From IMG/VR virus record IMGVR_UViG_3300035034_001869, positions 1-64,000 of that record: a DNA stretch of 64,000 bases. The stretch is one strand, 5' to 3'. The notes beneath the pieces were generated by a model. The model saw only the letters and a program-made list of their open reading frames with translations, had not been told where the DNA came from and searched no databases. Every line of letters starts with the position of its first letter. Position 1 is the stretch's first letter. The position numbers were made by a program, and so were the translations under genes. The stretch comes from a virus. This document shows positions 15,559 to 16,020 of the stretch, in pieces.

Positions 15559-15587
15559 ATTATAATCAATAATAAGCATAATGTCAA
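15559..15587 (-). promoter_or_regulatory. Consensus sigma70 promoter of the clamp-loader operon
   Basis: Leftward TTGACA (15582-15587), 17 bases, TATAAT (15559-15564). Both boxes match consensus perfectly, making it the strongest-looking promoter in the window. It would drive the RHH gene, clamp loader, helical protein, SSB and recombinase. Confidence 0.85.
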
Positions 15588-15632: not shown

Positions 15633-15672
15633 AAACAAAAACGACACCACGGGATAGCCTTCCCGTGATGTC
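15633..15672 (-). terminator. Strong terminator after the tRNA island
   Basis: Read leftward, an 11-bp stem (15662-15672 paired with 15643-15653, CCCGTG core, one wobble) is followed by TTTTTGTTT. A T-rich tract also follows on the other strand, so it may work in both directions. It insulates the tRNA transcripts from the clamp-loader promoter. Confidence 0.85.
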
Positions 15673-15677
15673 TTAGT

Positions 15678-15750
15678 TTTTGATACTCGGAATTGAACCG
15701 AGGACAAATCGCTTTATAGGCGATAGCTCTACCATCTGAGCTATATCAAT
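15678..15750 (-). tRNA. tRNA with formal anticodon AUA
   Basis: A complete cloverleaf: T8-A9, D-arm GCTC/GAGC with loop AGATGGTA, anticodon arm ATCGC/GCGAT with loop CTATAAA, five-base variable loop, and T-arm CTCGG/CCGAG with TTCAATT. The acceptor stem has six pairs (TTGATA/TATCAA) and an A-A mismatch at position 1-72. Position 34 is A, giving anticodon AUA (Tyr UAU if read literally), which is very rare in bacteria; the short variable loop argues against a normal tyrosine tRNA. CCA is not encoded. Identity is uncertain. Confidence 0.8.
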
Positions 15751-15789
15751 TTGTGCCATCGTTAAGTAAATTTCCGTTAGAATAAAATC

Positions 15790-15885
15790 TCATGTTAAAG
15801 ATATCATGTATTACCATTATACGATCCGGACATATGGTTTTTGTTGGCGTCCGGAGAGAGACTTGAACTCCCATTCTGAAAAATT
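15790..15885 (-). tRNA. Two tRNA halves in circularly permuted order (candidate permuted tRNA)
   Basis: On the leftward strand the 3' half comes first: T-arm GGGAG-TTCAAGT-CTCTC, acceptor TCCGGAC, discriminator G and an encoded CCA (15872 down to 15845). After 13 bases comes a 5' half: acceptor GTCCGGA, then TCGTAT-AATGG-TAATAC like the T4 tRNA-Gly D-arm (15831 down to about 15807). The two acceptor strands pair perfectly over 7 bp. Flanks TGATA and TTTCA could form an anticodon stem with one mismatch. No normally ordered partner for either half is visible nearby. The alternative is two decayed tRNAs. Confidence 0.45.
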
Positions 15886-16020
15886 TTAGGATTTTAAACA
15901 ATTTACTATTTACCTTTTTGGCTTAAACTGTAGGTCAAAAAACTTAATCTCATTGATTTTCTTCCTCAGGAAGAGAACCTTATTACACTAAACTAACACT
16001 AAGACTGGACCTAATTTGTA

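Follow-up and report, generated by a model that had tools for sequence, protein, structure and literature searches.

A circularly permuted tRNA-like RNA is encoded in the genome of an uncultured tailed phage, and its permuted architecture, the covariation of its helices and its near-constant association with the gene for a DUF7873 protein recur across diverse phages. We propose that this noncoding phage RNA is Y-RNA-like (YrlA-type), a permuted tRNA mimic that would work together with DUF7873, and give this reading a probability of roughly 60%. The window that was analysed is a stretch of 64,000 nucleotides comprising most of a 71.9-kb uncultured virus record (IMG/VR IMGVR_UViG_3300035034_001869), with tailed-phage genes for a P22-like coat protein, terminase, a family A polymerase and a clamp loader. 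The RNA lies on the minus strand between a normally ordered tRNA gene and the 261-aa DUF7873 gene, which is just upstream on the same strand (Table 1). A second metagenome contig (L002) carries the same locus with 99.96% identity over 5592 bases, with 2 differences in 5.6 kb. The nearest polA and clamp-loader relatives lack the tRNA insert at the corresponding site. As a separate observation, polA is interrupted in several relatives (L005, L007, L008, L009 and L013), and the insert in L013 reads as an intein in a single frame.

The core of the RNA is enclosed by the two strands of the anticodon stem: the 3′ strand comes first, then the T-arm, the acceptor 3′ strand, CCA and the spacer, next the acceptor 5′ strand with the D-arm, and last the 5′ strand of the anticodon stem. 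The original prediction, made from the letters of the window, had placed a tRNA 3′ half with an encoded CCA 13 bases ahead of a 5′ half and had noted perfect pairing of the acceptor strands. All three claims stand: the permuted order is present at the site and is conserved with covariation in dozens of phages, TCCGGAC pairs throughout with GTCCGGA when both are read on the minus strand, and CCA is encoded here as in 52/68 related units, in which it often precedes an A-rich spacer that closes with TAT. The D-arm is complete. A strict structural scan, demanding a 5/5 T stem, CCA, a 7/7 Watson-Crick acceptor within 60 nt, T8 and a D-arm with GG, gave one match in the window and none in 40 Markov-resampled windows. 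ARAGORN and Rfam reported the normal neighbouring tRNA at this site and not the permuted RNA, and BLAST of the tRNA halves against phages returned matches at chance level only.

Table 1. Features of the permuted RNA locus (window positions; parts of the two halves are numbered in the direction of the minus strand).
Feature	Position	Strand	Basis or remark
DUF7873 (PF25283) gene, 261 aa	16093..16878	-	Pfam E 1.3e-70; synteny; AlphaFold2 model
Upstream hairpin closed by AGGTC/GACCT	15932..16012	-	Putative part of the element; by eye, relatives show a GGGTCA...TGACCC counterpart
Outer helix P2, upstream strand TAAAATC	15890..15896	-	Pairs with GATTTTA
Circularly permuted tRNA-like core, anticodon-stem 3′ strand to anticodon-stem 5′ strand	15802..15882	-	Sequence; R1 67.6 bits, the window being one of the 40 building sequences of R1
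Anticodon-stem 3′ strand TTTCA (39-43)	15877..15881	-	Pairs 4/5 with 15802-15806
3′ half: T-arm, acceptor 3′ strand, discriminator, encoded CCA	15845..15872	-	Read from sequence
T-arm GGGAG-TTCAAGT-CTCTC	15872..15856	-	
Acceptor 3′ strand TCCGGAC	15855..15849	-	
Discriminator G73	15848	-	
Encoded CCA	15847..15845	-	
13-nt spacer ACAAAAACCATAT, CCA to 5′ half	15832..15844	-	TAT end shared with many relatives; possible leader for RNase P
5′ half: acceptor 5′ strand, T8 C9, D-arm	15808..15831	-	Read from sequence
Acceptor 5′ strand GTCCGGA	15831..15825	-	Followed by T8 C9
D-arm GTAT-AATGGTA-ATAC	15822..15808	-	Followed by A26
Anticodon-stem 5′ strand TGATA (27-31)	15802..15806	-	Partner of TTTCA
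Outer helix P2, downstream strand GATTTTA	15783..15789	-	Pairs with TAAAATC
tRNA-Tyr(AUA)-like gene, ordinary order	15678..15750	-	Just downstream of the permuted RNA; probably on the same transcript
Terminator-like hairpin	15643..15672	-	Consensus scan only; could end the DUF7873-RNA-tRNA unit

The pairing of DUF7873 with a permuted unit recurs across phage genomes. A tblastn search placed DUF7873 in 81 phage records, whose names span ten host genera, and at least one permuted unit lies directly downstream of the gene at all 12 non-Lak DUF7873 loci fetched from INPHARED. A profile search yielded 80 IMG/VR loci, 79 of them with downstream DNA, and 77 of these 79 carry a permuted unit on the DUF7873 strand, counted as an R1 match that scores 39.9 bits or more and lies no further than about 870 nt past the DUF7873 stop. 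R1 is a covariance model built from 40 units partly taken from these same loci. Every R1 match listed at the IMG/VR loci is on the DUF7873 strand, and two loci (L136 and L146) show no clear unit of this kind in the first 1 kb or so downstream. Because R1 was partly built from IMG/VR loci, independent support comes from the loci that the first scan had missed, most of which R1 recovered, from the INPHARED genomes, which are not among its building sequences, and from a control. In this control, 955 kb of phage loci selected by their clamp loader, R1 matched only at L080 and L089, both of which are DUF7873 loci. Both had come from widening the clamp-loader search to 80 loci, and their permuted units lie downstream of a homologue of the 261-aa gene.

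R1 matches also occur away from DUF7873. Whole-genome searches list weaker matches of roughly 20-39 bits, many in tRNA arrays, and matches above 40 bits occur in the tRNA arrays of a few IMG/VR loci (L171, L172, L122, L133 and L159). Strong matches away from DUF7873 are found in the Ro60 array of Rhizobium phage RHph_TM21B and at one site per Lak phage. The Lak units (L190 2503-2594 and L191 2205-2290, both on the minus strand; 57 and 47 bits) are far from the DUF7873-like gene, and the nearest larger gene, on the opposite strand, resembles a phage lysozyme. Some loci carry two units, the first of which (L080 2310-2430, L089 2720-2850 and the first units of L096 and L181) has a Leu-type D-arm. 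Several of these first units are closed by a paired variable arm, with a capped hairpin (GAAA, UACG or other loops) replacing the anticodon arm. By eye the hairpin is present in L080, L089, L170 and L181; as a conserved substitute for the anticodon arm it was dropped after an overall count of 8 compared with 7.75 in shuffles.

Covariation is seen in the acceptor, T, D and anticodon stems and in the outer helix, and so extends to helices beyond those used to find the units. Among 58 distinct units the acceptor strands pair at 100% of positions compared with 55% when partners are shuffled, and the D stem is 97% paired. Pairing of the T-arm and acceptor was a requirement of the scan, so helices outside that requirement give the fair tests. 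The anticodon stem is 88% paired compared with 40% after shuffling, in a test where the register was optimised for the true pairs and not for the shuffle. With equal optimisation for both, the anticodon stem pairs at 5/5 positions in 37/68 units compared with 9.5% of swapped pairs, and the alignment-wide covariation score is 0.777 compared with 0.228 for shuffled sequences. In the window itself, TGATA and TTTCA pair at 4/5 positions, in agreement with the one-mismatch stem first suggested for them. The flanks were also predicted to pair further out and hold the ends together; such a pairing exists and is conserved in the family, in a register slightly different from the proposed one: 15896..15890 pairs with 15789..15783 through seven Watson-Crick pairs. 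The window sequence by itself is weak, suggestive evidence for the outer helix, which is matched or beaten by 19% of swapped flanks and about 5% of shuffles. Evidence at the family level is strong, with a mean energy of -21.2 kcal/mol compared with -12.1 for swapped partners.

The closest known relatives of the DUF7873-linked RNA are the bacterial Y RNAs, for which we rely on two publications and the Rfam model of YrlA. YrlA is a tRNA mimic whose tRNA-like domain sits on a long stem; Rsr/Ro60 binds it, and PNPase occupies the tRNA-like end (PMC8394870). Structurally, YrlA can be superposed on tRNA if a circular permutation is allowed for (PMC11472068). Like YrlA (RF02553), the phage RNA carries its T-arm, acceptor and D-arm in circularly permuted order on the end of a long helix in which the RNA ends pair; this basal helix of 5′ and 3′ parts is evident for the family and only suggestive in the window alone. 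The phage element probably works like a Y RNA and is probably related to one. The two differ in their neighbours, with Ro60 beside the known Y RNA and DUF7873 beside the phage unit, and in the acceptor loop, where the Rfam YrlA consensus has no encoded CCA whereas the phage units usually do. Sub-threshold RF02553 matches of 32-41 bits occur at L080, L089, L156, L162, L126, L099, L092 and L181, with one unit each of L080 and L089 matching below the curated cut-off; no permuted unit reaches the gathering score of 69 bits, and the window gives no match. Weak RF02553 matches also appear in ordinary genomes and tRNA arrays used as controls, so a low score alone proves little. Ro60 (TROVE domain) is absent from the window genome (G000), from 13/14 INPHARED genomes and, at E 0.01, from 28/31 IMG/VR records, many of which are fragments.

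Rhizobium phage RHph_TM21B links the two kinds of RNA. Its Ro60 gene follows an array of Y-RNA-like permuted units, and R1, built from DUF7873 units only, scores Ro60-adjacent units at 64.8, 51.1 and 34.4 bits. At least one unit of the array has TCCA-TCTAT in its acceptor loop, with a spacer ending in TAT, and the genome also has a separate DUF7873 gene with its own permuted unit. About eight copies of TTGCGA in the array (L188 100-1250) suggest about eight Y-RNA-like units. The TTGCGA/ATCTC motif of the Ro60 array is essentially missing from DUF7873 units, where its two parts occur in 1 and 2 of 44, as would follow if the basal helix were read by a different protein.

The processing, binding and target of the RNA are inferred as follows. 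The T-arm, acceptor arm and D-arm would form a tRNA elbow, and pairing of the flanks would give an anticodon-like stem that continues into a longer basal helix, leaving no anticodon loop. With an encoded N-CCA and a short spacer in the acceptor loop, host RNase P and 3′ processing could open that loop to leave a mature-looking tRNA end, and the opened RNA would consist of two pieces joined by the basal helix. The encoded CCA and spacer would point either to the making of a real 3′ end or to an enzyme that reads CCA, for example RNase P, recognising the RNA. Judging from synteny, the RNA and the adjacent DUF7873 protein may form a ribonucleoprotein in which DUF7873 probably binds the basal helix, the position of Ro60/Rsr in bacterial Y RNPs. 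In the least certain step, the tRNA-like end might, in the infected cell, engage or titrate a factor that handles tRNA, for instance PNPase, RNase P or a nuclease acting on tRNA.

The original prediction had favoured a possible circularly permuted tRNA gene from which circular RNA processing could release a linear tRNA. In the form of this rival considered here, the precursor would be cut in the internal loop between anticodon stem and outer helix and closed into a circle by ligation; removal of the spacer by RNase P and 3′ nucleases would then leave a linear tRNA that is charged, and DUF7873 would be a splicing or guiding factor. The encoded N-CCA in 52/68 units with a spacer often ending in TAT, a canonical variable loop and position 26, the covarying anticodon stem and an outer helix resembling that of archaeal and algal permuted pre-tRNAs (PMC3978253) all agree with such a gene. 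The permuted tRNA genes known from Thermofilum pendens and from unicellular algae share the 3′ half before the 5′ half, the spacer and the paired ends, and the archaeal genes also encode CCA (PMC3978253); the present RNA differs in that its joining would yield no canonical anticodon loop, in that no splicing machinery is seen and in that it occurs in bacteriophages. In the window the two candidate positions for U33 carry C or A, in keeping with the lack of a convincing loop noted at the outset, and among 26 units with a perfect anticodon stem U occupies the two possible positions in 10/26 and 8/26, against a background of about 0.34. The discriminator base drifts freely (T22 G20 A17 C9), RtcB is missing from 11/12 genomes, and no splicing endonuclease is present among the window proteins searched. 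As to a BHB motif, an internal loop is present between the two helices. With no conserved U33, a free discriminator and RtcB in only 1/12 genomes, a working spliced tRNA is unlikely, and the proposed release of a linear tRNA finds no support. Of the checks suggested for it, ARAGORN on rotated sequence is uninformative because almost any junction gives a tRNA call with a changing anticodon, and Rfam shows no group I/II intron family among window matches up to E 10, nor does any intron family appear in relatives, searched up to E 5 and 0.5. A Y-RNA-type tRNA mimic fits better than a spliced linear tRNA. It is improbable that phages have genuine permuted tRNA genes whose product matures by way of a circle and that DUF7873 is a novel protein for splicing or guiding; if real, these would be the first such genes outside archaea and algae, and splicing would represent a new bacterial route of tRNA maturation.

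Less probable still is an RNA that acts without a protein partner as a decoy for enzymes that cleave or process tRNA, with the DUF7873 linkage incidental. A tRNA shape without a decoding loop and the frequent position of the unit inside tRNA arrays would suit a decoy, but the linkage to DUF7873 is near-constant across very diverse phages. We consider it very improbable that the RNA is a two-piece tmRNA-like molecule, opened at the CCA, charged and used on the ribosome like permuted tmRNAs. The order of the halves is that of permuted tmRNA, whose acceptor ends are likewise opposed across a removable spacer, and L181 gives weak beta_tmRNA matches; unlike tmRNA, the phage RNA has a full D-arm and carries the alanine pair G3-U70 in just 1/58 units, no tag reading frame was identified and the window has no tmRNA family match. 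Finally, the fallback that two tandem tRNAs with identical acceptor stems left these halves after their outer halves decayed accords with the 13-nt, array-like spacing and the tRNA gene directly after the unit, but is rejected, and refuted at the family level, by differing acceptors that all still pair at dozens of loci and outer flanks that covary with each other.

We propose the DUF7873 protein as the partner of the Y-RNA-like element, with RNA binding predicted from synteny. An AlphaFold2 model built with 57 sequences (pLDDT 92.9, pTM 0.81) contains two long strands plus long helices. The PDB has no match to DUF7873 by sequence, nor by fold at E<0.001, and a fold search of BFVD gave nothing with E<0.001, its match A0A7M1RW91 having probability 1.00 but a TM score of 0.43. 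NCBIfam, PADLOC and PHROGs contain no match. No earlier report of a DUF7873-type permuted RNA turned up in the open-access literature searched, and the pair looks like an undescribed phage RNA-protein system. An uncharacterised protein family with no detectable structural relative thereby gains a concrete candidate RNA partner, in phages of Rhizobium, Vibrio, Klebsiella, Pseudanabaena, Arthrobacter and Gordonia and in many uncultured phages. If it is a Y RNP with a new protein, the Y RNA design would be independent of Ro60, and one could ask how tRNA mimics benefit phages. The system can be tested in cultured phages, Gordonia phage GodonK among them.

Several observations concern the neighbourhood and annotation of these RNAs. 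The tRNA-Tyr next to the RNA in the window is unusual for a bacterial tRNA-Tyr: its anticodon is AUA, its variable loop is short, its CCA is not encoded and it has a mismatch, A1-A72. A reading involving a TAA suppressor was dropped, as window genes use all of TAA, TGA and TAG as stops. Directly past the terminator-like hairpin and before an 85-aa gene is a perfect consensus sigma-70-like promoter, TTGACA-17-TATAAT (15559-15587, minus strand). Permuted RNAs escape gene finders, and in Klebsiella phage Centimanus (L095 4010-4093) an annotated tRNA-Stop(tta), seemingly a suppressor tRNA, overlaps the second permuted unit and therefore looks like a misannotation. In Gordonia phage GodonK (L099 378-906), a tmRNA (RF00023, 90 bits) is found where the record annotates tRNA-His.
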